Origin: a virus
Strand: one strand, 5' to 3'
Length of the DNA stretch: 39,697 nt
Virus record (IMG/VR): IMGVR_UViG_3300033147_000236
Location: 1-39,697 of that record
The translations under genes and the position numbers were made by a program. Below the pieces are notes generated by a model. That model ran no database searches, was not told where the DNA came from, and saw nothing but the letters and a program-made list of their open reading frames with translations. Positions 1 to 39,697 of the stretch are shown here, piece by piece (positions within the stretch are counted from its first letter, which is position 1; the number at the start of each line of letters is the position of its first letter).

Positions 1-114
1 TATAGTGACCCATGGCCGTATCAGGCGATTGACCCCGTTAACTACCCCGTCGACGATAGGTAAGCCAGAATTTGCTGGTTTATCGTGCTGTCGCGCTGAA
101 TCAATTGCCCGAGC
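1..114. repeat. Terminal direct repeat (left copy)
   Basis: These 114 bases are identical to 39584-39697, so the contig closes into a circle of 39,583 bp. The repeat lies inside a holin-like gene that reads correctly only across the junction, so the ends are probably an assembly overlap on a circular or circularly permuted map. A true T7-like terminal repeat inside a gene is less likely but cannot be excluded. Confidence 0.95.
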
Positions 115-2250: not shown

Positions 2251-4005
2251 TTATGTTACGATAAACAGTCGTTTACGTGGGTCAGTGGAAACTGCAAGAG
2301 GGGCATAAGCAGTGATGGTCAATGGTGCCGATGGTAATTGACTGATGTGTTTTTCGGTCGTAATTACTTGGGGCACGTACCCGGTGACGGTCAACGATGC
2401 TGATGGCAATTGGCTGAAATTACTGGCCGCGCTTATAGCTAATGGCACGTACCCGGTAACGGTTAATGATACTGATGGCAATTGGCTGGTATTCGGATCA
2501 AATGTTACGATAAGCGGCACGTACCCGGTAACGGTCAATGACACCGATGGTAATTGGCTGAAATTATTCTCAGTCGTGATTACTTGGAGCACGTACCCGG
2601 TAACGGTCAATGATGCCGATGGCAGTTCACTGGCGTTGCCTAATCCGCCCTCAGTGGTGGTAATAGTGGGCACATACTTAGTGAAAGTCAACGATACTGA
2701 TGGCAATTGGCTGGTATTCGGATCAAAAATCTCTACCGTTGGTACGTACCCGGTAACGGTTAACGATACTGATGGCAATTGACTAGTATTTGGATCAAAA
2801 ACCTCTACCGTTGGTACGTACCCGGTAACGGCCAATGACGCCGATGGGAGGTTCACAAACTGACTATCGCCCTCCGATGTAATAGCTTGGGGCACGTACC
2901 CGGTAACGGTCAATGATGCCGATGGTAATTCACTAATGTTCTTTTCAGTGGTAACTGCCGTTGGTACGTACCCGGTAACGGCCAACGATGCTGATGGCAG
3001 TTCACTGATATTCTTCTCAGTGGTAATTACCGTTGGTACGTACCCGGTAACGGTCAATGATGCCGATGGCAATTGACTAAAGTTACTGGCCGCTACCACA
3101 ATCTGTGGCACGTATCCGGTCACGGTTAATGACACTGATGGTAATTGACTGAAATTGTTTTCAGTGGTAACTGCCGTTGGTACGTACCCGGTAACGGTCA
3201 ATGATGCCGATGGCAATTGACTAATATTCTTTTCAGTGGTGATTGCTGTTGGAACGTACCCGGTAACGGTCAATGATGCTGATGGTAATTGGCTGAAATT
3301 ACTGGCCGCTACTACTGCTTGGGGCACGTACCCGGTAAAGGTCAATGACACCGATGGTAATTGACTGGTATTCGGGTCAAACGTTACTATGAGCGGCACG
3401 TATCCGGTAACGGTCAATGATGCCGATGGTAATTGACTGATGTTATTAGAGTCAGCTGCAATCGTAATTGTTGGAACTGTATCAAATGGAATATCGGTAA
3501 AGATCGGATCGATCGTTTCCATATTATACCGAAATGTGATTACTGCTCCAGCAGATACCTGCGCTGAATCTGCTGTGAGACAATATTCATATTCAGTAGT
3601 ATCATCAGTCCATGTTTGATTTGTTGGCAACGATGACTCAAGCCCTTCCATCCAAGTTGTTTGATAGTCGATTGCCGCACCAATGCGCGTTAATCGTTGG
3701 GTTGGATCATTGTCCTTGTTAGCAAAGTTCGATGAGGCGGCATATTGAACTGCAGAACTCGCTGTGACATCTGCAAATGATCCGCCATCGATAGCGAACT
3801 GTAAAGTTAAGGCAGCACTAACATTTTCATCAGTGGAGGAAGCTTGATCACTAAAATTGACGCGTAGCCGAAAATTCTCATCAAGTGCTTGACCTGTGAC
3901 AGCGACATCTTCAGCGGCTTTAGCGGTAGCCACACCAAGTCCAGCATCATCGTCATGGAAACGAAAATTCTGCCCTTTCCATACCGGGACGACGGAATGG
4001 GTCAT
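2251..4005 (-). CDS. Repeat-rich structural protein (16 copies of a 24-aa repeat)
   Basis: A 584-aa protein between the two fibre-adaptor genes. Residues 1-189 form a non-repetitive N-terminal domain, beta-rich by appearance, containing WKGQNFRFHDDD near the start. Residues 190-584 are 16 tandem repeats with the core LPSASLTVTGYVP and a variable 8-10-residue linker such as TTEKNI or FDPNT. Most units are exactly 24 residues; units 8 and 11 carry small insertions. The C-terminus ends in KRLFIVT. Similar PSASLxxTGYxP repeats occur in other phage virion proteins. A stalk, decoration or host-adhesion role is likely but not shown. Its start overlaps the stop of the gene at 4002-4343 by 4 bp. Confidence 0.75.
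   Translation of the reverse strand: MTHSVVPVWKGQNFRFHDDDAGLGVATAKAAEDVAVTGQALDENFRLRVNFSDQASSTDENVSAALTLQFAIDGGSFADVTASSAVQYAASSNFANKDNDPTQRLTRIGAAIDYQTTWMEGLESSLPTNQTWTDDTTEYEYCLTADSAQVSAGAVITFRYNMETIDPIFTDIPFDTVPTITIAADSNNISQLPSASLTVTGYVPLIVTFDPNTSQLPSVSLTFTGYVPQAVVAASNFSQLPSASLTVTGYVPTAITTEKNISQLPSASLTVTGYVPTAVTTENNFSQLPSVSLTVTGYVPQIVVAASNFSQLPSASLTVTGYVPTVITTEKNISELPSASLAVTGYVPTAVTTEKNISELPSASLTVTGYVPQAITSEGDSQFVNLPSASLAVTGYVPTVEVFDPNTSQLPSVSLTVTGYVPTVEIFDPNTSQLPSVSLTFTKYVPTITTTEGGLGNASELPSASLTVTGYVLQVITTENNFSQLPSVSLTVTGYVPLIVTFDPNTSQLPSVSLTVTGYVPLAISAASNFSQLPSASLTVTGYVPQVITTEKHISQLPSAPLTITAYAPLAVSTDPRKRLFIVT
2254..3438 (-). repeat. Tandem 72-bp coding repeats
   Basis: Sixteen units, mostly exactly 72 bp, encode the 24-residue repeats of the 584-aa structural protein. 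On the plus strand each unit shows the conserved block CACGTACCCGGTAACGGT with synonymous changes between copies. The reading frame is kept throughout, so copy number could change by recombination without breaking the gene. Short-read assemblies of this segment may collapse or expand units. Confidence 0.92.
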
Positions 4006-22486: not shown

Positions 22487-22549
22487 CCTTCATCCTTTCG
22501 TTAAGTATGTAGATGCGCTCTTCAAGAACAAAGTCTTGATTCAATCCTT

Positions 22550-22568
22550 CTGCCGTTAAAGGCGGCAG
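22550..22568 (-). other. 5' leader hairpin of the late transcript
   Basis: CTGCCG pairs with CGGCAG across 7 bases, in the 107-base leader between the late promoter and the small terminase gene. A second short inverted repeat (TCAAGA/TCTTGA) follows. Confidence 0.5.
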
Positions 22569-22599
22569 GGTTCTGAAAAGCGATTCTCTCATGTGACCG

Positions 22600-22629
22600 A
22601 GTATATCACATCGAGGTACCCCGTGTCAA
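22600..22629 (-). promoter_or_regulatory. Main late promoter (leftward)
   Basis: -35 TTGACA (22629-22624), 18-bp spacer, -10 TATACT (22605-22600) with extended TGA. It drives the terminase-to-lysis genes. It is sigma70-like, so late expression does not need a phage RNA polymerase. The spacer contains GGGTACCTC, close to the GAGTACCTC of two other promoters. Confidence 0.85.
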
Positions 22630-22910
22630 CCCCCGGATAACGCGCCCGCGTACGCGGAAAAAGAAGAATCGGCAAGTCTCGCGGCTCAATGGCGCGGAGA
22701 AGAAAAGAGGAAGCCCGCGCGGAACCCCTATGAACGCGGAACAGCGGGTCCTCCGTGTCGGGGGGTACTCCCCACATAAGAACCGCGCATATATACGTCT
22801 TCCTTTTTCTGAGGAACTCATTGCCCCCGGAACCGGGGCGCGGCGAGCGGCCCGAGCGGGGCAACGCGTCTCGCCCAGACCCCGCTAGGAACGGGTCATT
22901 AACGCGACAC
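22630..22910. other. Divergent intergenic control region
   Basis: These 281 bases lie between the leftward late promoter and the first rightward promoter. There is no credible gene. The DNA is GC-rich with repeated GCGGAA words and the inverted pair CCCCGG/CCGGGG (near 22824-22840). GGTACTCC at 22764-22771 is the reverse complement of the GGAGTACC found inside two promoters. It may be the early/late switch or part of the origin. Confidence 0.5.
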
Positions 22911-22939
22911 TTGACACGGCGATCGCCCTGTGTTTTAAT
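22911..22939 (+). promoter_or_regulatory. Early promoter P1
   Basis: -35 TTGACA (22911-22916), 17-bp spacer, -10 TTTAAT (22934-22939), extended TGT. It opens the first rightward operon. Confidence 0.8.
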
Positions 22940-22944
22940 GGGGG

Positions 22945-22968
22945 TCTGGTGAGGGGCGGCTCACCAGA
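22945..22968 (+). other. 5' leader hairpin of P1 transcript
   Basis: TCTGGTGAG pairs with CTCACCAGA (9 bp) over a 6-base loop. It begins within a few bases of the expected start of transcription, so the message would open with a closed stem. Confidence 0.8.
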
Positions 22969-23000
22969 ACCCTAAACCCCGCCCAACACAGGAGCACGAC

Positions 23001-23402
23001 ATGGGTAACAAAGCGAAGCAGGTGGAGCGAGTCTCCGAAGAGAAGTTGGCCACGGAAGTGGAAGGCACGCCGAAGCGGTCCAAGAGCGAACAGCTCAAGC
23101 AGTACAAAGCCGGATACGAGACGTATCAGGGACCGAACGGCAACCTCAGCATGGACAACGGCGACCCGGTTGCCTTGGTTCTGCGAGGGGCAAGCCCGGA
23201 AGCAGTGATGGCGGCAGCTGAGAAGCTCAAGGGCCTGGAAGCCGGGACGCTGGCAACGCGGTACATCGACCGCAACAACGGGGCCAAGCGGATGAACAGC
23301 GGCAACATCATCCGAGGCCTCGTGAAACGCGGCGACGTCACCCCGGCGGCGGTCACCAAGGCAATCAAGGCCGCCAGCAAGGTCCTGAACGCCGCAAGCT
23401 AG
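23001..23402 (+). CDS. Early basic protein, paralogue of 28680-29180 product
   Basis: A 133-aa basic protein, first gene of the P1 operon, behind ACACAGGAGCA. Its core shares a pattern with the product of 28680-29180: ETYxGxxG, then GDPVALVLRG, then RYIDRNNGAKRMNSGNIIRG. The paralogue reads KYGHLNVGMQRMNLGNRIRG there. The N-terminus is Lys/Glu-rich. I do not know a function; similar small proteins recur in phage early regions, and basic charge plus early timing suggest DNA or RNA binding. GC content is visibly higher than in most of the genome. Confidence 0.75.
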   Translation: MGNKAKQVERVSEEKLATEVEGTPKRSKSEQLKQYKAGYETYQGPNGNLSMDNGDPVALVLRGASPEAVMAAAEKLKGLEAGTLATRYIDRNNGAKRMNSGNIIRGLVKRGDVTPAAVTKAIKAASKVLNAAS

Positions 23403-23414
23403 CGGCAACCACCA

Positions 23415-23438
23415 GCCCCGGGCAATCCGGCCCGGGGC
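23415..23438 (+). other. Intergenic hairpin
   Basis: GCCCCGGG pairs with CCCGGGGC over 8 bases, between two P1 genes and 19 bases before the next start. It is of the same class as the hairpins at 24580, 24825 and 26127. No T-run follows, so it is not a terminator. Confidence 0.75.
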
Positions 23439-23457
23439 AACCACAGAGGAACACGAC

Positions 23458-23619
23458 ATGAGAACACGAATCACGGCCATTGGGGCTGGAATCATCCTCT
23501 TCACGTACTTCAACGCGTTGATAGCGGAATCGGTCAGCACCGTCCAGCTGGAACGCGCCTACACCTGCTCAGTGAAACAGGTGACCTGCAAGCCCTTCGG
23601 GTTCATCAGGCCGCAGTAG
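23458..23619 (+). CDS. 53-aa small membrane or exported protein
   Basis: Starts at ATG 23458 behind AGAGGAACACGAC. The product opens MRTRITAIGAGIILF with a short hydrophobic helix (residues 5-23) after two Arg residues, then has two Cys (37 and 44) in the tail. This could be a signal anchor or a cleaved signal with a disulphide-bonded peptide. It is the second and last gene of the P1 operon, followed within 10 bases by a strong terminator. Function is unknown; early host-envelope interference is one possibility. Confidence 0.65.
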   Translation: MRTRITAIGAGIILFTYFNALIAESVSTVQLERAYTCSVKQVTCKPFGFIRPQ

Positions 23620-23628
23620 GAACACATC

Positions 23629-23657
23629 GCCCGGGCCGTTACCAGCCCGGGCTTTTC
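23629..23657 (+). terminator. Rho-independent terminator of the P1 operon
   Basis: GCCCGGGC is repeated as its own reverse complement (23629-23636 and 23645-23652), forming an 8-bp stem with an 8-base loop, followed by TTTTC. It closes the first early operon. Confidence 0.85.
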
Positions 23658-24281
23658 TGTGTCTGCGTTCCCGGAACACGTTGTACGAACGCGTCTACTG
23701 CACCCGAGCAGAATGCATTACTAAGTGAACTTGCCGAACGCATTGATGAACGCGTCTCAAGGGCCGAAGGCGTTACTAAGTGAACTTGGAACGTGCTTCG
23801 AGGCCCGAACGAGTTGCAGAGCGAACTTCGGAACAGGCAACGGCGCGAAGAACGCGAAGCACGAAGCGCGGACGGGGAAGCGGGCGGCCCCAGGCCATTT
23901 GGAAGACCCACCGAGCGAGCAGTTCCGGGGCCGCGACCCTTTGGCGGTCCTTCCGGTCCTGGAAGGACTGTCGGTCGGGCGAACCACGACGAAGAGAGGA
24001 GTATCCCCCCGCCGAACCCCCTCCCCCTTCTCTCTCTCTTTCGTCATTTTTTAGAGAGAAGGACCGGAGGGACCGGAGGGACGAACCCCCGAACGACGCG
24101 GCATCCGACGTCTTGCACCAGAAGGACCAGTCCTCCTCGTCCTCCTCGCTATTACCTCCAAACCCGAGTACCTCCCCGGGAGGTATCCCTATTGCCACGA
24201 TGAATGTTTTTCGTGCAACTCTGAGAAGGACCGAGGCAACTGAGAAGGACCGCGCAACACGCTCCCATGATAAATAAGTAC
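23658..24281. other. Noncoding GC-rich repeat region, candidate origin
   Basis: About 620 bases without a gene I can support; the long open frames here overlap on both strands and lack ribosome sites. Contents: a 16-bp direct repeat TTACTAAGTGAACTTG at 23718 and 23773; GAACGCGTCT at 23687 and 23748; GAGAAGGACCG at 24056, 24223 and 24242; a polypyrimidine/polypurine inverted repeat CCTTCTCTCT/AGAGAGAAGG (24026-24062); and a perfect palindrome with arms TACCTCCC/GGGAGGTA at 24169-24185. Such repeats between two early operons fit a replication origin or a regulatory RNA. No transcript start is visible within it. Confidence 0.5.
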
Positions 24282-24310
24282 TTGACAGAGAGGCTCGGAT
24301 GTGAGATAAT
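24282..24310 (+). promoter_or_regulatory. Early promoter P2
   Basis: -35 TTGACA (24282-24287), 17-bp spacer, -10 GATAAT (24305-24310), extended TGA. The bases before the -35 (ATAAATAAGTAC) are shared with P3 and nearly with P4. Confidence 0.85.
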
Positions 24311-24319
24311 GGGGGGTCC

Positions 24320-24338
24320 GCCCGGGGCCTGCCCGGGC
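24320..24338 (+). other. 5' leader hairpin of P2 transcript
   Basis: GCCCGGG pairs with CCCGGGC over 5 bases, starting 10 bases after the -10 box. Confidence 0.8.
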
Positions 24339-24359
24339 ATTTAGCAACAGGAGTAACAA

Positions 24360-32421: not shown

Positions 32422-32429
32422 GCCAGTTT

Positions 32430-32451
32430 GGGGTCCCGATATCGGGACCCC
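32430..32451 (+). other. Intergenic hairpin (GGGGTCCCGA type)
   Basis: A perfect palindrome with arms GGGGTCCCGAT and ATCGGGACCCC, the same stem as the capsid terminator but without a T-run on either strand. It is 28 bases before the next ATG, matching the hairpin-then-start layout of the early genes. Confidence 0.8.
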
Positions 32452-32478
32452 ACTTTCACGGGACAACAGGAGCAGGAA

Positions 32479-32748
32479 ATGGCATTTGAACACAAGCCTA
32501 ACACAGGGTCGTTATTCAAAAACGGGTACAAGACTCAGGATAAGCACCCTGATCACCAAGGTGCATGTAAAGTGGTCTGCGAGAAATGCGGCCATGAAAC
32601 TGAACTCAAAATCTCAGCGTGGATCAACCTCCAGAAGGACAACGTGACCCGCTATTTCGGCTTGGTCTTTAGTAAGCACCAAGCTAAAGAACAATCTAGC
32701 CCGGTTGTAGACAATCGAGAAGATTTCGACGACGATATCCCGTTCTAA
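32479..32748 (+). CDS. Small protein with bacterial SSB C-terminal tip
   Basis: An 89-aa protein read from ATG 32479, behind AACAGGAGCAGGAA. The body has NTGSLFKNGYK, a HPDHQG turn, C-E-K-C (34-37) and a strand pattern KISAWINLQKDNVTRYFGL, a design seen in small ssDNA-binding or SSB-like phage proteins. The last eight residues, DFDDDIPF, are identical to the tip of E. coli SSB that recruits many repair and replication proteins. It therefore probably binds host or phage SSB partners, or mimics SSB. Confidence 0.75.
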   Translation: MAFEHKPNTGSLFKNGYKTQDKHPDHQGACKVVCEKCGHETELKISAWINLQKDNVTRYFGLVFSKHQAKEQSSPVVDNREDFDDDIPF

Positions 32749-32943
32749 ATGGCTGATGTAATCCCTGCACGGGATTTGGACCCCGATGCATTGAGGGAGG
32801 AAGCCATAGAACTGTTGTCTAAAATAACAGCAGAATTTCGATCTGATCCGCTCTCGGTCCAATGCTTTGATTTACGGATTGTGCGTAGAGCAGTAGAAGT
32901 CTCTACGGAATATGAATTTCGTAGAGACAGATCAATTTTTTAA
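32749..32943 (+). CDS. Small hypothetical protein preceding the polymerase
   Basis: A 64-aa protein directly after the previous stop; its TAA overlaps the polymerase ATG (TAATG). It is helical (DPDALREEAIELLSKITAEF). The last codons form the hairpin described at 32899-32928, so this gene also carries a possible control element of the polymerase. Function is unknown. Confidence 0.6.
   Translation: MADVIPARDLDPDALREEAIELLSKITAEFRSDPLSVQCFDLRIVRRAVEVSTEYEFRRDRSIF
32899..32928 (+). promoter_or_regulatory. Hairpin just upstream of the DNA polymerase start
   Basis: GTCTCTACG pairs perfectly with CGTAGAGAC over a 12-base loop. It ends 14 bases before the polymerase ATG and covers the only GAGA-like ribosome site; TTTTTT follows at 32936-32941. 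It may control translation of the polymerase (as in T4 gene 43) or act as an attenuator. Confidence 0.55.
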
Positions 32944-34781
32944 TGTACCCCGATCTTCGTAAATATCCGTACTTTGCGTACGACACGGAGGCCACCGGAT
33001 TACGATACAAAGTTGATAAGGTATTCGCCTTTTCGATAGCGGTCCCCGGTGGGCAGTCGTGGTATTATGATTTTCGGCGTCAGCCGAAGGCGCATGACTG
33101 GTTGAATGATCAATTTTCCGCCTTGAGGAAAAGTGCCCCCGGCACTACTTGTATCATCTGCCATAACGCTCCCTTTGATGCTTGCATGTCGGCTGACGTC
33201 GGGATTCACATCCCTCTACATTTGCTCGATGATACGGTCAACCGGGCATGCCTTATCAACGAGCACGAAGCCTCTGTGTTCCCTTGGAATAAAGGGCGCA
33301 AACCGGGCGGCTATAGCCTGGATTACCTCTGTCGAAAATACCTCAAGAAAGGCAAAAAGGAAATCGACATCGAGAACATTGCCGACCTTCCGTTTGAGGA
33401 GGCAGCCGAGTATGGCGCTTGGGACACGGTATTAACCCTCGAGCTATGGGAATGGCAGCAAAGGGAAATTGAAAAGCACAACTTATATCAAATTGCGGAG
33501 CTTGAACGTCGCACTATGCCCGTTATTATTGATTCTCAAATGAGGGGAATTCGCGTTGACCTCGATGAAGCTGAACGCGCAATGGTGGCAATGACTCCGC
33601 ACATTGGTAATTTGCAGGGACAAATGAACAAACATGCCGGGTGGGACTTCAATACCAATTCACCCAAGCAGATGATTAAGTTATTTGAGCCTACCCGCAC
33701 CAACAAGAGTTGGTATGTCGGTGGATTAAAGATCGGCACAACTGATAAAGGTGCCCCTTCATTCAAAAAGGAATATCTTGAGGAGTTAGCAGAACATGAC
33801 CCACGCGCTCGATTGGTTACAAACATCCGATCCGCACTCAAGACCCGCGACACTTTTTTAGCCAAACACATCCTTGAACACGCTATCGACGGGAAAGTAT
33901 ATCCCACTATCAACCAGACAGTGCGGGAAACAGGCGGCACTAAGTGGGGCCGATTGTCGTATGTGAACCCCGCGATGCAGCAGATACCGAGCCGCGATAA
34001 AATCACTGCGGCCATTGTCAAGCCCTGCTTTCTCCCAGATGAAGGTCAAGTGTGGGTTGACTATGACATGGCCAGTTTCGAGGTTCGGGTATTCGCGGCA
34101 TTGGCCGGGATGTATAATCCCTACCTAGTCAAACTCTACCAAGAGGACCCAAAACTGGACCTGCATCAATGGGTCGCAGACACAATGGGCATTATACGCA
34201 ATGCCGAGTTCGGTGGCCAAACTAACGCTAAACAGCTGAACTTGAGTATGATTTTCAGCCAAGGTAAAGGAGCCACCGCTGCAAAGATGGGCATGAACAC
34301 AACGGATGCGGAGTTTACAGATGAATACGGAGACACCATCAAATACCAGAAGGCAGGAAGCGATGCGGACCAAATCATTGCCCGATATCATTCAAGAGTT
34401 CGAGGAGTACAGCAACTTGCCGACAATGCAAAAAAGATCGCAGTTAATAGGGGGTACATTCGAACAAAATACGGTAGGCATTTGCGCTTCCCCCGGGGAT
34501 ATAAAGCGTATAAGGCTTCAGGAATACTCATACAGGCTACTTCTGCTGATATTAACAAAGAAAATTGGTGTATCATTGATGAAGCTTTGGATGGGCGGGG
34601 AAGGATCGCCTTAAACACGCACGATAGCTACAGCTTAAGCTGTGACGAGGACAAATGGGAAGCAGCTGGCGCGGATGTTAAGGCTGCCGTTGAGCGAGAA
34701 TTTTTAGGGGTGCCGTTGTTGTTAGACTTCAACGGCGTTGGGCGGAACTGGTGGTCTGCCTTAAAGAATGAAGGGATATGA
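32943..34781 (+). CDS. dpoZ: Family A DNA polymerase of the Z-genome type
   Basis: A 612-aa polymerase with 3'-5' exonuclease. Exonuclease motifs: DTE (14-16), HNAPFD (74-79) and YGAWD (157-161), all intact. Polymerase motif A is VDYDMASFEVR (372-382; Asp375, Glu380, Arg382), motif B has Lys430 in NAKQLNLSMIFSQG, and motif C is THDSYSLS (His560, Asp561). Motif C lacks the Glu of the common HDE. There is no 5'-3' exonuclease domain. In Z-genome phages such as phiVC8 this enzyme, DpoZ, copies DNA with dZTP in place of dATP. The symbol rests on the family plus linkage to purZ, mazZ and datZ. Confidence 0.85.
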   Translation: MYPDLRKYPYFAYDTEATGLRYKVDKVFAFSIAVPGGQSWYYDFRRQPKAHDWLNDQFSALRKSAPGTTCIICHNAPFDACMSADVGIHIPLHLLDDTVNRACLINEHEASVFPWNKGRKPGGYSLDYLCRKYLKKGKKEIDIENIADLPFEEAAEYGAWDTVLTLELWEWQQREIEKHNLYQIAELERRTMPVIIDSQMRGIRVDLDEAERAMVAMTPHIGNLQGQMNKHAGWDFNTNSPKQMIKLFEPTRTNKSWYVGGLKIGTTDKGAPSFKKEYLEELAEHDPRARLVTNIRSALKTRDTFLAKHILEHAIDGKVYPTINQTVRETGGTKWGRLSYVNPAMQQIPSRDKITAAIVKPCFLPDEGQVWVDYDMASFEVRVFAALAGMYNPYLVKLYQEDPKLDLHQWVADTMGIIRNAEFGGQTNAKQLNLSMIFSQGKGATAAKMGMNTTDAEFTDEYGDTIKYQKAGSDADQIIARYHSRVRGVQQLADNAKKIAVNRGYIRTKYGRHLRFPRGYKAYKASGILIQATSADINKENWCIIDEALDGRGRIALNTHDSYSLSCDEDKWEAAGADVKAAVEREFLGVPLLLDFNGVGRNWWSALKNEGI

Positions 34782-34782
34782 A

Positions 34783-36978
34783 ATGCTGTTGCCAATAAAT
34801 GAAGTAAAGGTGATCGAATCGATCACCGATTTCAACACACGAATACATCAAGCGGCTAGGTTATATGCAAGTCAGGGAATACCAGTCGTTCCGCTTAGGC
34901 CAAATGAAAAAATATTGCCCAAGAAAGAAACGGGTATCAATTACTTTTCAAATTCAACCAACATATCCACCATGGACAAATGGTTCGGACCCAAGGGCAA
35001 GTACCGGGGCTGGAACATTGGCATAGTTTGTGGCCACGAGATATTTGTAGCGGACCTGGACTTACATGGCCGTGAAAATGGCATCGAGAATTGGGATAAA
35101 TTTGCCAATGGGAGGGAATTAAAATGTCCCGTCCAGCAAACCCCTACCGGGGGGCGGCACTTAGTTATGCGGTGGAGGGAGAATCTTACTAGTAGTTCAG
35201 GAAAGCTGACGAGGGGCGTCGACACCCGGGGCGGTGACGGTAGGCCCCGCTCTCACATCGTAGCATGGCCCTCGGTCACGGAAGACGGGGCGTACAGCTG
35301 GGTGAACGGGGGCGACATACCCGACGCGCCTGAGTGGATCAGTACAGCTATGGGTAGGTCGTGGGCGACGAAGGCCCCGGGCCGAGGAAATGAAGAGGTA
35401 GAAGGTCATGAAGAGTTTCAGCACAGCTTGTCACAGGTCGCCGCAATGTTGGACCATGTTGACCCCAATATACTCTCGTACGAGGAATGGTTGTTTATCG
35501 GACAAGCAATTAATTCACAACACCCCAATGAGGATGGTTTACAGCTTTGGGATGCTTGGAGCGCGCCCGGTGAACGGTATATACAGGGCGAGTGTCATAA
35601 GCGGTGGACCGGATTTAACCCCGCTGGAACCATTCGAATGGGGTCGCTCGTTTATTTTGCTAAGCAGGGCGGTTACAAGCCATCTGCGGACTCTGCACGA
35701 CAGGGCGATTTCAATGAAGTAATTGAAAGGATGAACGAAAGCAACGCCGTACTCTTAATAGGGGGTAAGGTTAGGATCGTTCATAAGGACAAACGGGATA
35801 ATATCCATATTATGGGCACTCAGGACTTTAATACCCTGATGTATAACCGTAAGATAACCATCCCAGCTACCGGGCCAAAGGGTAGCCCCAAAGTAATAAC
35901 AGAGGCCGAAGTTTGGATGGGCCATGAAGATAGGCGCGAATGCGTAATGGGCATGGGATTTTTCCCCGATAAACCATTATGGCACGATGGTTATGTTAAT
36001 ATCTGGCAGGGGTGGGGGGTCAAGTCCGAAGAGGGCAATTGGCAAATGTTTAATGATCACATTCGAGACGTGATTTGCAATAAGGACGAAAAATTACACA
36101 AGTACGTGTTAGATTGGATGGCCGACATGGTTCAAGACCCAATGAACCCCAAAGGCACCGCAATAGTGATGCATGGTAAAGAGGGAACGGGAAAGGGAAC
36201 TTTCTGCCAGTTTATGGGCAAGATTATTGGGCAGAAGCACTACAAGCACGTGACGAATGAACGTCACCTGACAGGCAATTTTAACTACCATCTTATGGAT
36301 GGGTTGTTGATCTTTGCAGACGAGGTAGTTTATGGCGGGTCAAGGAGTACGGCAGGTATACTTAAGAGCATGGTCACTGAAAAGGAATTGGTTTGTGAAC
36401 GTAAGGGAGTGGACTCCTTTATGTACGAGAACCGAGCAAGACTTGTTGTGGCCAGCAATGAGGACTGGTTTATCCCGGCTGGTCCCGAATCTAGACGATG
36501 GCTTGTACTGGAGGTAAACGATACTAAGGCTAACGATAAAAGATACTTTGACCTCATGTATGAGCAGATGAATACAGGCGGATACGAAGCAATGATGTTC
36601 GACCTACAGAGGCAGGTGATATCAAGTAACTTAGGCGTAGCACTAGTCACCAAGGGCCTTGAGGCCCAACGATCGATTTACAAAGCCACTGGCGATTCAG
36701 TCGATATTTGGTTCGATCGGTGCGTGGGATTAAGAAATTTAGGCGTTCTCGATGAAGGCGAGGGGGAATGGCCCGATGATTGTGATAGGCAAAGACTCTT
36801 TGAAGCATACCAAAAATGGCTAAACGAAAACAATGGTATGCGGTCAAAGGGAGTGGCACATTTTTATAGAAAGGTAGAAGGATATGGGTTCGTTAAGCAC
36901 AGACCAGCATCAGAAGGCGGCATCAGAAGGTGGCGCTACAAAATCCCTTATTATGGCCAGTTTACACCCGAAGGTTGA
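34783..36978 (+). CDS. PrimPol-helicase (primase/polymerase with SF3-type ATPase)
   Basis: A 731-aa fusion. The N-terminus is a bifunctional primase-polymerase domain: ARLYASQGIPVVPLRPNEK, then NIGIVCG and catalytic DLD (91-93), then GGRHLVMR. Next is a PriCT_2-like part (YEEWLFIGQAIN, GLQLWDAWS). The C-terminus is a DUF5906/D5-like ATPase: Walker A GKEGTGKGT (465-473), Walker B LLIFADE (508-514) and sensor VVASNE, ending in R-R-W-L-V-L-E. It would prime and unwind at the fork. The start is ATG 34783, with GAAGGG ahead and one base after the polymerase stop; 34768 is less likely. It ends inside purZ (26-bp overlap). Confidence 0.88.
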   Translation: MLLPINEVKVIESITDFNTRIHQAARLYASQGIPVVPLRPNEKILPKKETGINYFSNSTNISTMDKWFGPKGKYRGWNIGIVCGHEIFVADLDLHGRENGIENWDKFANGRELKCPVQQTPTGGRHLVMRWRENLTSSSGKLTRGVDTRGGDGRPRSHIVAWPSVTEDGAYSWVNGGDIPDAPEWISTAMGRSWATKAPGRGNEEVEGHEEFQHSLSQVAAMLDHVDPNILSYEEWLFIGQAINSQHPNEDGLQLWDAWSAPGERYIQGECHKRWTGFNPAGTIRMGSLVYFAKQGGYKPSADSARQGDFNEVIERMNESNAVLLIGGKVRIVHKDKRDNIHIMGTQDFNTLMYNRKITIPATGPKGSPKVITEAEVWMGHEDRRECVMGMGFFPDKPLWHDGYVNIWQGWGVKSEEGNWQMFNDHIRDVICNKDEKLHKYVLDWMADMVQDPMNPKGTAIVMHGKEGTGKGTFCQFMGKIIGQKHYKHVTNERHLTGNFNYHLMDGLLIFADEVVYGGSRSTAGILKSMVTEKELVCERKGVDSFMYENRARLVVASNEDWFIPAGPESRRWLVLEVNDTKANDKRYFDLMYEQMNTGGYEAMMFDLQRQVISSNLGVALVTKGLEAQRSIYKATGDSVDIWFDRCVGLRNLGVLDEGEGEWPDDCDRQRLFEAYQKWLNENNGMRSKGVAHFYRKVEGYGFVKHRPASEGGIRRWRYKIPYYGQFTPEG

Positions 36979-37939
36979 CGTTGTAGTTGATTTACAATTT
37001 GGCAGTACAGGAAAGGGCCTGTTTTGTGGGTATTTAGGCGATACCAAGGATTATGACATGGTGATGTCGGCCAATATGCCGAATGCGGGTCATACCTATA
37101 TTGATAAGTACGGCAATCGTTATATGTTTAAGGTGCTGCCATCGAGTGCTGTGGGTAAGTCAGTCAAGACAGTGATGATTGGCCCCGGGGCTGTGTTCCG
37201 CATAGGCAGGTTAGTCGAAGAAATGGTCTTTTTGCGGAAAGATCAGACGTTGAGAATCCACCCTAATGCGATGGTGCTGTCACCGGACCACCCGGTGCAG
37301 GAGGCCAAGCGGCTTCGGCACATATCAAGCACACTGCAAGGGTCAGCGGCGGCGGTGATCGATAAAATGTGGCGATCTGGTAATGCCCCCATCGCCAAGG
37401 ATGCACTACGAGGCACTAAATTTGAAAAGTATGTTTGCAGCCACGACGAATGGAAAATTCGATTATCGATGGCTGATGCCGTGTTGGCCGAAGGTTCGCA
37501 GGGGTACAGTCTTGGAATAAACACCCAATTCTATCCCTTCACCACCAGTCGGGATTGTACCCCTGCGTCCTTCCTTTCAGCTTGCGGCGTACCTTTAAAA
37601 ATGCTTAATAGGGTCTATGGCACCTGCCGCACCCTGCCCATAAGGGTCGGGGGTCCAAGTGGTGACTACTACCCCGATCAGGATGAGTTATCCTGGGAGG
37701 AATTAGGGTTGCCCGAGGAAAGAACCACCGTGACCAACAAGATACGGCGAATTTTCTCCTACTCCAAGCTACAGATCGAGGAGGCAATTTGGCATTGCAA
37801 CCCCGATGCGGTCTTCGTTAACTTCGCCAATTACATTGACAAAGATTACATGCACAACATCGTTGCCCATATTGACCAGTATAGCAGCGTGCAGTGGGTC
37901 GGGCATGGTCCAACATTCAATGACATAGGAGCGGTATAA
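36953..37939 (+). CDS. purZ: PurZ, aminodeoxyadenylosuccinate synthetase
   Basis: A 328-aa PurA-family enzyme that joins aspartate to dGMP, the first committed step to 2-aminoadenine (Z). The P-loop reads QFGSTGKG: PurA has GDEGKG, and replacement of the catalytic Asp by Ser (Ser18) is the accepted mark of PurZ. His47 in NMPNAGHTYI matches the PurA general acid. The size is smaller than bacterial PurA (about 430). The start is uncertain: ATG 36953 places the VDVVVDLQ strand at the usual distance but has a weak ribosome site. ATG 36884, with AAAGG ahead, would add 23 residues. The stop overlaps mazZ (TAATG). The product needs host PurB and kinases to become dZTP. Confidence 0.93.
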   Translation: MASLHPKVDVVVDLQFGSTGKGLFCGYLGDTKDYDMVMSANMPNAGHTYIDKYGNRYMFKVLPSSAVGKSVKTVMIGPGAVFRIGRLVEEMVFLRKDQTLRIHPNAMVLSPDHPVQEAKRLRHISSTLQGSAAAVIDKMWRSGNAPIAKDALRGTKFEKYVCSHDEWKIRLSMADAVLAEGSQGYSLGINTQFYPFTTSRDCTPASFLSACGVPLKMLNRVYGTCRTLPIRVGGPSGDYYPDQDELSWEELGLPEERTTVTNKIRRIFSYSKLQIEEAIWHCNPDAVFVNFANYIDKDYMHNIVAHIDQYSSVQWVGHGPTFNDIGAV

Positions 37940-38280
37940 TGCACATAGAGGAATTGCAGGGATACATTTATCAATGGGCACAGGGAATAATGCCCAATCG
38001 GGTTCCGGCTGATGCCATTAAGAAGTTATCAATGGAAGAAGTGCCAGAATTATGGAGAGCGTTAAAGGAAAATGGGCATATTGACGAGGGCGAAATAGCC
38101 GATATTTTAATCCTTGCCCTTGATATTTGTGCTATGTCATGCATAGATGCAGGGGAGGCGATCAAAAAGAAAATGGCAATTAACGAGGCCAGAAATTGGA
38201 AATTTGAATATGGGGTATTACAACATGAAGACGAGTCATTAGCAAGGGAACTTGCGGAATTAGAGGCGGATAAAAAATGA
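37939..38280 (+). CDS. mazZ: MazZ, MazG-like dGTP pyrophosphohydrolase
   Basis: A 113-aa single-domain all-helical NTP pyrophosphohydrolase. The MazG metal motif is complete: E-E-V-P-E (Glu33, Glu34, Glu37), then E-I-A-D (Glu52, Asp55). In Z-genome phages MazZ converts dGTP to dGMP, feeding PurZ with its substrate. It is fused in the operon by TAATG to purZ and by an ATGA overlap to datZ. The assignment rests on the motif and this linkage; a general MazG housecleaning activity is the alternative. Confidence 0.88.
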   Translation: MHIEELQGYIYQWAQGIMPNRVPADAIKKLSMEEVPELWRALKENGHIDEGEIADILILALDICAMSCIDAGEAIKKKMAINEARNWKFEYGVLQHEDESLARELAELEADKK

Positions 38281-38777
38281 AGATCAATGATATTTTACGC
38301 GCATCCGGCGTTACCCGATGGCACATTGTTAGGATGGTTAGACCACAATCCCTGGCAGAACACACATTCGATGTGGTAATGATTGCCCGGGCGATCGCCA
38401 GCATTGCAGCGGTAGACGATTATGAAATCATTAAAGCAGCCCTATTGCACGACCTCGACGAGATCATTACGGGAGACATACCAACTCCTACTAAAGCTCG
38501 GGCTAGGGAGAACGGCTGGGAACTTAATGAACTCTACAAGTCTATCACCGGGCGAGAAATTACACCAGATGAGGCGCTTATTGTCCAATTGGCGGACAAA
38601 TTGGCCGATCTCTATTGGCTGTGGACTCATGCCTTGGGGCCTCATTCAAACGCAGTATACGAAAAGATGGCCGAGACGTACAATGAATTTGTGCGCTCTG
38701 AATCCATACCAGACAACATTCGCGAGGCTGCGTTGGATGTACAGATGCAAATGCTCTCAGAGGACTTTTTAATATGA
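38277..38777 (+). CDS. datZ: DatZ, HD-domain dATP triphosphohydrolase
   Basis: A 166-aa YfbR-like HD phosphohydrolase. The metal ligands are His29 in QSLAEHTF, His58-Asp59 in LLHDLDE and Asp107 in QLADKLADL. The RW pair (14-15) before QSLAEH fits known DatZ enzymes. DatZ removes dATP so the phage polymerase inserts Z and not A. It overlaps mazZ and the nuclease gene by 4 bp each. A general 5'-nucleotidase is the alternative, but the purZ-mazZ-datZ order makes that unlikely. Confidence 0.9.
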   Translation: MKINDILRASGVTRWHIVRMVRPQSLAEHTFDVVMIARAIASIAAVDDYEIIKAALLHDLDEIITGDIPTPTKARARENGWELNELYKSITGREITPDEALIVQLADKLADLYWLWTHALGPHSNAVYEKMAETYNEFVRSESIPDNIREAALDVQMQMLSEDFLI

Positions 38778-39268
38778 GCGGCGAGAAGAAGATGTGGAAT
38801 TATCTAGGCCCCAAGCTACGATTTGCTGGGCATTTCGAAAGGATTGAATCCCATGAAACGGCGATCGGTACCCCGGATGTTGGCTATTGCATCCGGGGCT
38901 ACAACAATCACATGGAGCTTAAATACACCGAGAAAGAGAATGGGTGTATATTAAGGCCCAGCCAGTGTGCGTGGTTCAAGAAGCGGGTCAAAGCCAAGGG
39001 CCAGCCGTGGCTACTACTACAAATGAAAATCAGGGACACAAGGGGCTGGGCACTTATCCCGGGCTGCGATGTCCCGCCCTTGGTACACACCAAAAATGTC
39101 ATTGAATGGATGCAAGCAGGAGTAGTGGTATGGAAGAATCAAATAGTAATCGAGGAACTGATCCATTACTTGAGTTCGTACTTAGTAGTGGAGGAAGAAC
39201 GGCCAAGTGGGACGTCGGGAAAAGAATCCTCTGGATTGATATTGCCGTCTCACATAAGGAGGAATTAG
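38774..39268 (+). CDS. PD-(D/E)XK nuclease, VRR-NUC-like
   Basis: A 164-aa protein. The nuclease core is GTPD (32-35) followed by ELK (48-50), with Gln64 in RPSQ after the last strand, the standard VRR-NUC/Holliday-resolvase pattern. Such enzymes resolve branched DNA before packaging or degrade host DNA; a nuclease acting only on A-containing DNA would be helped by a Z genome, but that is speculation. The last 45 codons lie inside a different gene on the same strand (39130-39465) and look less constrained, so the true fold probably ends near residue 130. Confidence 0.78.
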   Translation: MSGEKKMWNYLGPKLRFAGHFERIESHETAIGTPDVGYCIRGYNNHMELKYTEKENGCILRPSQCAWFKKRVKAKGQPWLLLQMKIRDTRGWALIPGCDVPPLVHTKNVIEWMQAGVVVWKNQIVIEELIHYLSSYLVVEEERPSGTSGKESSGLILPSHIRRN

Positions 39269-39465: not shown

Positions 39466-39697
39466 CAAGGAGTCTGCCGCCAAACCAGAAGGCAAGAATG
39501 ATCTTGGTGATCGCCCAATATTGGGGGTCGATACTCTCTGGTGGCGGCAGTTCCCAATAGCCGAAAAGTGAACCTAATACAGTTATAGTGACCCATGGCC
39601 GTATCAGGCGATTGACCCCGTTAACTACCCCGTCGACGATAGGTAAGCCAGAATTTGCTGGTTTATCGTGCTGTCGCGCTGAATCAATTGCCCGAGC
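39425..39697 (-). CDS. Holin-like membrane protein, C-terminal part (runs off the right edge)
   Basis: This is the 3' part of the 141-aa gene whose 5' part is at 1-267; 39584-39697 duplicates 1-114. Hydrophobic stretches WVTITVLGSLFGYWEL and YWAITKIILAFWFGG are separated by PPPESIDPQ, giving two membrane helices joined by a short turn, and the end is DIPQGIKTLIR. This fits the C-terminal hairpin of three-helix holins. The stop is TAG at 39427-39425. Confidence 0.7.
   Translation of the reverse strand, partial: ARAIDSARQHDKPANSGLPIVDGVVNGVNRLIRPWVTITVLGSLFGYWELPPPESIDPQYWAITKIILAFWFGGRLLVKDIPQGIKTLIR
39584..39697. repeat. Terminal direct repeat (right copy)
   Basis: Identical to bases 1-114. 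Joining the copies restores one continuous holin-like gene, which supports circular closure at 39,583 bp. Confidence 0.95.

Follow-up and report, generated by a model that had tools for sequence, protein, structure and literature searches.

Phages whose DNA carries 2-aminoadenine (Z) in place of adenine (A) are known from systems such as those of the cyanophage S-2L, phiVC8, and the Acinetobacter phage SH-Ab 15497. The S-2L trio datZ-mazZ-purZ suffices to bring Z into the DNA of E. coli, and Z-DNA resists adenine-targeting restriction enzymes (PMC8342488). The phiVC8-like group of the DNA polymerase DpoZ is marked by the residues L455, F459, G548, and S583, and its E1/E2 element has been described as a conserved feature (PMC8599892). 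Published statements hold that phages with a phiVC8-like DpoZ also have datZ, and that the place of mazZ is between datZ and purZ (PMC8599892, PMC8342488). Since a 2026 survey says that PurZ phages “mostly” encode DatZ, exceptions are not excluded by it (PMC12884076). Here, we analyze a metagenome contig, IMG/VR record IMGVR_UViG_3300033147_000236, whose full 39,697 bases we call the window, and which carries a Z gene set of this kind. While the Z system itself is known, the clade to which the window belongs is new in having a DpoZ that lacks helix E1 and in the replacement of datZ in close relatives.

Gene content of the Z locus

At positions 32943-38777, five overlapping genes lie on the + strand in the order dpoZ, primase-helicase, purZ, mazZ, and datZ (Table 1), the same order as in phiVC8, ZP6, BUCT555, and many IMG/VR contigs. 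Neighboring genes overlap by 14 nucleotides (dpoZ/primase-helicase), 26-95 nucleotides (primase-helicase/purZ, depending on the purZ start), 1 nucleotide (purZ/mazZ, TAATG), and 4 nucleotides (mazZ/datZ, ATGA). A sequence-only reading of this DNA had named the same five genes as a complete Z gene set in near-continuous overlap, and its coordinates, the DpoZ and PurZ family cut-offs, and the matches to Z phages all agree, with every junction overlapping (1 to 95 nucleotides). It had also pointed to a PurA homologue with Ser for the catalytic Asp, a MazG protein with EExxE/ExxD, an HD hydrolase with H...HD...D, and a family A polymerase, and each of these was recovered, with family and PDB scores far above what chance would give. 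Because an exact 114-bp direct terminal repeat is present at the two record ends (39,583-bp unit), the record is taken as a complete genome.

PurZ scored 303.4 bits against NCBIfam NF038379 (cut-off 300) and matched phiVC8 PurZ in the PDB (6fm1, E 3e-101). In alignment, GSTGKG stands in the window where E. coli PurA has GDEGKG; at this catalytic column, Ser was found in 93/93 PurZ, PurZ0, and PurZ-like rows with a residue, vs. Asp in three PurA rows. Of the dGMP-pocket residues given for S-2L PurZ (PMC8342488), most are retained and a few are substituted. A FastTree phylogeny of 97 rows, in which PurZ0 and PurA were included, gave a phage PurZ group of 83 rows with a local support of 0.986; the window’s PurZ lies within it and is separate from both PurZ0 and PurA. 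The sequence-only reading had named a PurZ falling outside the Z-phage clades as a result that would speak against it, and the tree puts the protein inside.

MazZ was assigned by similarity and residues, and DatZ by similarity, residues, and fold. MazZ matched S-2L MazZ (7ody, E 6e-14), and its metal ligands E35, E38, E50, and D53 as well as the guanine contacts I56 and D60 are all kept in the alignment. DatZ matched S-2L DatZ (6zpa, E 3e-11) and PHROG 7076, with the HD metal ligands and R19, W20, I22, P79, and K81 present, and the best PDB match of its structural model (pLDDT 90.8) was again 6zpa (TM 0.81). DpoZ scored 700 bits against NCBIfam NF038380 (cut-off 500) and matched phiVC8 DpoZ (7pbk, E 2e-193), which was also the best PDB match of its AlphaFold model (41 sequences, pLDDT 91.9, TM 0.91). 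L455, F459, G548, and S583 are identical in the window, as are the exonuclease and polymerase catalytic residues that were checked, and the three polymerase-domain insertions of phiVC8-like DpoZ (DpoZ-2) were found by alignment.

Enzyme activities, base composition, and protection are what we infer from characterized relatives, whose enzyme steps lead to Z-for-A DNA. MazZ would convert dGTP to dGMP, PurZ would join dGMP and aspartate (with ATP or dATP) into dSMP, and host PurB together with host kinases would carry dSMP on to dZTP. DatZ would strip dATP of its phosphates, and DpoZ, with priming and unwinding by the PrimPol-DUF5906 protein, would copy the genome with a preference for dZTP. The resulting Z-for-A genome would be shielded from adenine-reading restriction enzymes. 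From the genes and residues described above, we consider it highly probable that the Z-DNA system is functional and that Z replaces all or nearly all A in the genome, and the virion DNA is very likely made of Z. The sequence-only reading had extended protection to CRISPR nucleases, a claim that finds no support in our sources, which report only resistance to adenine-targeting restriction enzymes (PMC8342488).

Table 1. Coordinates of the Z genes, diagnostic codons, and other features of the window
Feature	Position	Strand	Basis or remark
Direct terminal repeat, left copy	1..114	.	Exact repeat
Direct terminal repeat, right copy	39584..39697	.	Exact repeat
dpoZ, family A DNA polymerase with 3'-5' exonuclease domain, phiVC8-like, without helix E1, 612 aa	32943..34781	+	NF038380, 7pbk
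Junction of the clade-specific 17-residue deletion (residues 138/139), corresponding to phiVC8 DpoZ 144-160	33354..33359	+	Alignment
Primase-helicase, PrimPol + PriCT_2 + DUF5906, 736 aa	34768..36978	+	PF09250, PF08707, PF19263 above cut-off
purZ, 2-aminodeoxyadenylosuccinate synthetase, 351 aa	36884..37939	+	NF038379, 6fm1, PurZ clade
purZ alternative start, 328 aa	36953..37939	+	
Ser codon in place of the PurA catalytic Asp (GSTGKG)	37004..37006	+	Aligned to S23 of S-2L PurZ
mazZ, S-2L-type (MazZ-1, DUF550) MazG-like dGTP pyrophosphohydrolase, 113 aa	37939..38280	+	7ody
datZ, HD-domain dATP triphosphohydrolase, 166 aa	38277..38777	+	PHROG 7076, 6zpa sequence and fold
Gln codon at the S-2L DatZ Lys116 position	38586..38588	+	Alignment, 87 rows
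Probable single-stranded DNA-binding protein, upstream of dpoZ	32428..32748	+	Weak matches to PHROGs 18154 and 7364, E ~3e-5
PHROG 2165 family gene, 4-nucleotide overlap with datZ	38774..39268	+	Annotated DNA helicase or nuclease in relatives

A DpoZ without helix E1

The deletion in the window’s DpoZ takes away part of the mobile exonuclease element, namely the whole of helix E1 (phiVC8 145-155) and the linker to E2. In the predicted structure, helix 126-134 is followed by a loop, a short helix at 143-148, and a further helix spanning 151-178. This exonuclease segment is 28 residues long in all nine distinct clade contigs that cover it (the window and eight others), as compared with 44-47 residues in all 65 non-clade rows, where the deletion was found in 0/65. 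The clade comprises 12 rows of the PurZ tree and is known from metagenome contigs only. With L042/L045 as the root of a concatenated tree, its bootstrap is 100. Since E1/E2 has been described as a feature of phiVC8-like DpoZ and E1 is absent here, the clade is an exception. The extended helices E1 and E2 that serve as a criterion for phiVC8-like DpoZ do not occur together in the window, and its polymerase is, judged by sequence, a variant of the DpoZ-2 family rather than a typical member.

The neighborhood of this element has been studied in phiVC8. Changes at R161 and M165 in helix E2, which is beside E1, abolished significant primer degradation; mid-points were 449 μM dATP and 15.6 μM dZTP for the wild type, and 342 μM dATP and 1.9 μM dZTP for R161A/M165A (PMC8599892). 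The dATP/dZTP mid-point ratio that we compute from these values goes from ~29 in the wild type to ~180 in the mutant. According to the same study, no single element accounts for the discrimination between Z and A (PMC8599892).

DatZ and relatives without it

In S-2L DatZ, Lys116 neutralizes the triphosphate and was reported to be strictly conserved in the earliest DatZ proteins described; in OxsA, a related HD phosphohydrolase, Glu occupies this position (PMC8065100). The window has Gln here. Across the aligned rows, Lys is found in 62/87, with Q, H, E, R, or A in the others (~1/4), so K116 is unusable as a defining feature of DatZ. We considered reading K116Q as the mark of a dead DatZ and rejected this reading, as the position varies over the 87 rows and the remaining listed catalytic residues are intact.

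Three members of the clade have no DatZ detectable in protein, PHROG, and Pfam searches of their records: L028 (record G007), L017/L029 (G004), and L018/L034 (G005). Records G004 and G005 are partial, and G007 (40,822 bp) is a complete genome, as indicated by its 141-bp terminal repeat. A DUF7220 gene (PF23858, 70-77 aa) lies directly 3' of mazZ in 3/3 of these records; in G007, it encodes a 73-aa protein (L121:3176-3397) and sits between mazZ and a nuclease-like gene. No DUF7220 gene was found in the window, in the six datZ-carrying clade records searched, or in the other Z loci examined. L028 clusters with datZ-carrying contigs and L029 with L030, in which datZ is present (bootstrap 100 in both cases); because each groups with datZ carriers, the swap from datZ to DUF7220 maps to two or more branches, either through repeated replacement or through recombination across the flanks. 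DUF7220 is present in 48 phage records, whose hosts span many genera, and is thus not specific to Z phages. That spread and a length of only 70-77 aa make it unlikely to be an enzymatic substitute for DatZ, and no mention of DUF7220 was found in the searched literature.

Overall, datZ is absent from 3/12 clade contigs vs. 2/63 other loci (Fisher p 0.027, with relatedness ignored), the latter two being L062, which has no DpoZ, and L103, with only 2.3 kb of downstream sequence. The link between the E1 deletion and the loss of datZ is a correlation within one clade, and the datZ-less relatives bear on the published statements about the company and position of datZ (PMC8599892, PMC8342488). We tentatively suggest, while doubting it more than we credit it, that loss of E1 weakens proofreading and sharpens the choice of dZTP over dATP, which would make the destruction of dATP dispensable, so that datZ may drift or be swapped, giving Z phages without a dATP hydrolase. 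As a separate observation, L062 is a 120-kb contig with a phage-type purZ and none of dpoZ, mazZ, or datZ within ~6 kb.

Comparison with named phages and prevalence

The sequence-only reading had held that this very set occurs in phiVC8, SH-Ab 15497, and S-2L, which is inexact. phiVC8 (and VP2, VP5, K300) shares the order dpoZ, primase, purZ, mazZ, and datZ with the window, at 53% identity for DpoZ and 50% for PurZ, but its MazZ is the unrelated MazZ-2 (PMC12884076) and its DpoZ residues 144-160 are present. S-2L has the same type of MazZ (42% identity, guanine-pocket residues kept), along with PurZ at 37% and DatZ at 29%; unlike the window, it has no DpoZ and uses PrimPol as its replicative polymerase (PMC8065100, PMC8599892). 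SH-Ab 15497 resembles the window in its PurZ, DUF550 MazZ domain, HD DatZ, and DpoZ, whereas its MazZ is a DUF5664-DUF550 fusion (PMC12884076) and no primase-helicase lies between dpoZ and purZ. Our comparisons indicate that, in the window’s clade, an S-2L-type MazZ-1 is part of a phiVC8-type operon. This combination alone is not new because the Stenotrophomonas phage BUCT555 (MW291508), a named phage of the same genome size class, has it as well. In the same order as in the window, BUCT555 carries a DNA polymerase I, a 2.27-kb gene annotated as “integrase”, purZ, a DUF550-type MazZ-1, and an HD protein, with identities of ~48% for PurZ, 48% for DpoZ, and 31% for DatZ; unlike the window, its DpoZ retains the E1/E2 segment and its DatZ retains K116.

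A search of the region against phages by megablast gave zero matches. PurZ relatives are encoded on 393 IMG/VR contigs and matched in 206 named phage records. An alignment-based query was needed to find the former, as a single-sequence PurZ scan of viral contigs gave nothing. We examined the best 80 of the 393; in most of these 80, dpoZ, purZ, a mazZ, and datZ co-occur, and in many of them the primase-helicase lies in between. Near relatives of the window may escape some searches.

Beyond the phage contigs, L113, a contig from a metagenome-assembled genome (MAG) labeled Candidatus Gottesmanbacteria, encodes PurZ, a DpoZ-like polymerase, and a DatZ-like protein, and may belong to a Z phage of a candidate-phyla bacterium. 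PurZ-like proteins were also seen on mostly DPANN archaeal contigs (L107 and L109-L112, from Woesearchaeota, Aenigmatarchaeota, and Nanoarchaeota MAGs; L108, from a MAG labeled Hespellia). They have Ser at the catalytic column, the tree keeps them apart from the phage PurZ group, and no DpoZ, MazZ, or DatZ was found on the stretches of L107-L112 that were examined.

Alternative explanations

Several points weigh against a Z genome. PurZ clears its NCBIfam cut-off only narrowly, searches of Pfam and NCBIfam gave no match for MazZ, and the filter against dATP or the proofreading may differ from those of the model phages, because DatZ has Gln at the Lys116 position and DpoZ lacks helix E1. No tRNA gene that might point to a host was found in the window, and when bacterial and archaeal genomes were scanned with PurZ, only distant relatives in MAGs were recovered (≤44% identity). 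A-containing 6-bp palindromes have observed/expected values of 0.82-0.92 in seven Z phages (0.83 in the window) vs. 0.46-0.80 in six non-Z phages. This lesser avoidance agrees with the Z reading only weakly, since the phages are few and their hosts differ; hand-picked controls and confounded hosts count against the test. The ratio of GC-only to A-containing palindromes was also tried as a Z signature and failed to separate Z from non-Z phages. A PurZ0-type system (DutZ, DmtZ) was ruled out, as PurZ falls outside the PurZ0 group and no match to dUTPase or nucleoside-transferase families was found among the 10 scanned replication-module proteins of the window.

Among the rival explanations, the altered DatZ and the E1-less DpoZ could together allow both A and Z to be incorporated, leaving DNA that is only partly Z. 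K116Q, the DpoZ deletion, and the complete absence of datZ from three close relatives would fit such a mixed genome. We nevertheless find it improbable, given that DatZ is intact at the other listed residues, with K116 itself variable in about a quarter of DatZ rows, that every DpoZ signature residue is retained, and that mutation of the E2 helix in phiVC8 DpoZ increased the selectivity for Z over A (PMC8599892). On another account, the DNA is ordinary adenine DNA, with the PurA-like protein boosting adenine nucleotides while the MazG-like and HD proteins tune the pools. PurZ is indeed a PurA homologue at the Pfam level (PF00709), and MazG-like and HD proteins are found in ordinary phages too, yet Ser in place of the catalytic Asp, the position of PurZ in the tree, the DpoZ model score, and the whole set in the known Z order make this very improbable. 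Finally, as the source is a metagenome contig, Z genes from one phage might have been joined to the genome of another during assembly. The terminal repeat is clean, however, relatives on other contigs have the same order with collinear flanks, and a complete relative matches the window gene by gene, genome-wide. Such a chimera is extremely improbable and, given the collinear relatives, largely refuted. A functional system and a genome of Z in place of A thus stays our preferred explanation.

Other features of the genome

The genome is laid out in two arms, as in a small podovirus-like phage: the - strand encodes a capsid protein (PF19821) and a head-tail connector (PF12236), and the replication genes occupy the + strand. 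Downstream of the Z genes, phiVC8 also has a gene with the PHROG 2165-type annotation. The junction of the arms (22500-24350) has few genes and a GC content of 0.54-0.64 vs. 0.49 for the genome. Amid tail-region genes, a 584-aa protein (2251-4005, - strand) contains ~16 repeats of ~24 residues (LPSASLTVTGYVP...), for which a PHROG search gave no match.

Implications

The window’s clade provides a natural experiment on how DpoZ discriminates Z from A and on whether the removal of dATP is needed, with an E1-less DpoZ and with relatives that have and lack datZ, one of the latter being a complete genome. Z content and Z/A selectivity, measured within the clade, could tell apart what the polymerase and the dATP hydrolase each contribute, a matter of relevance to engineering cells with ZTGC DNA.

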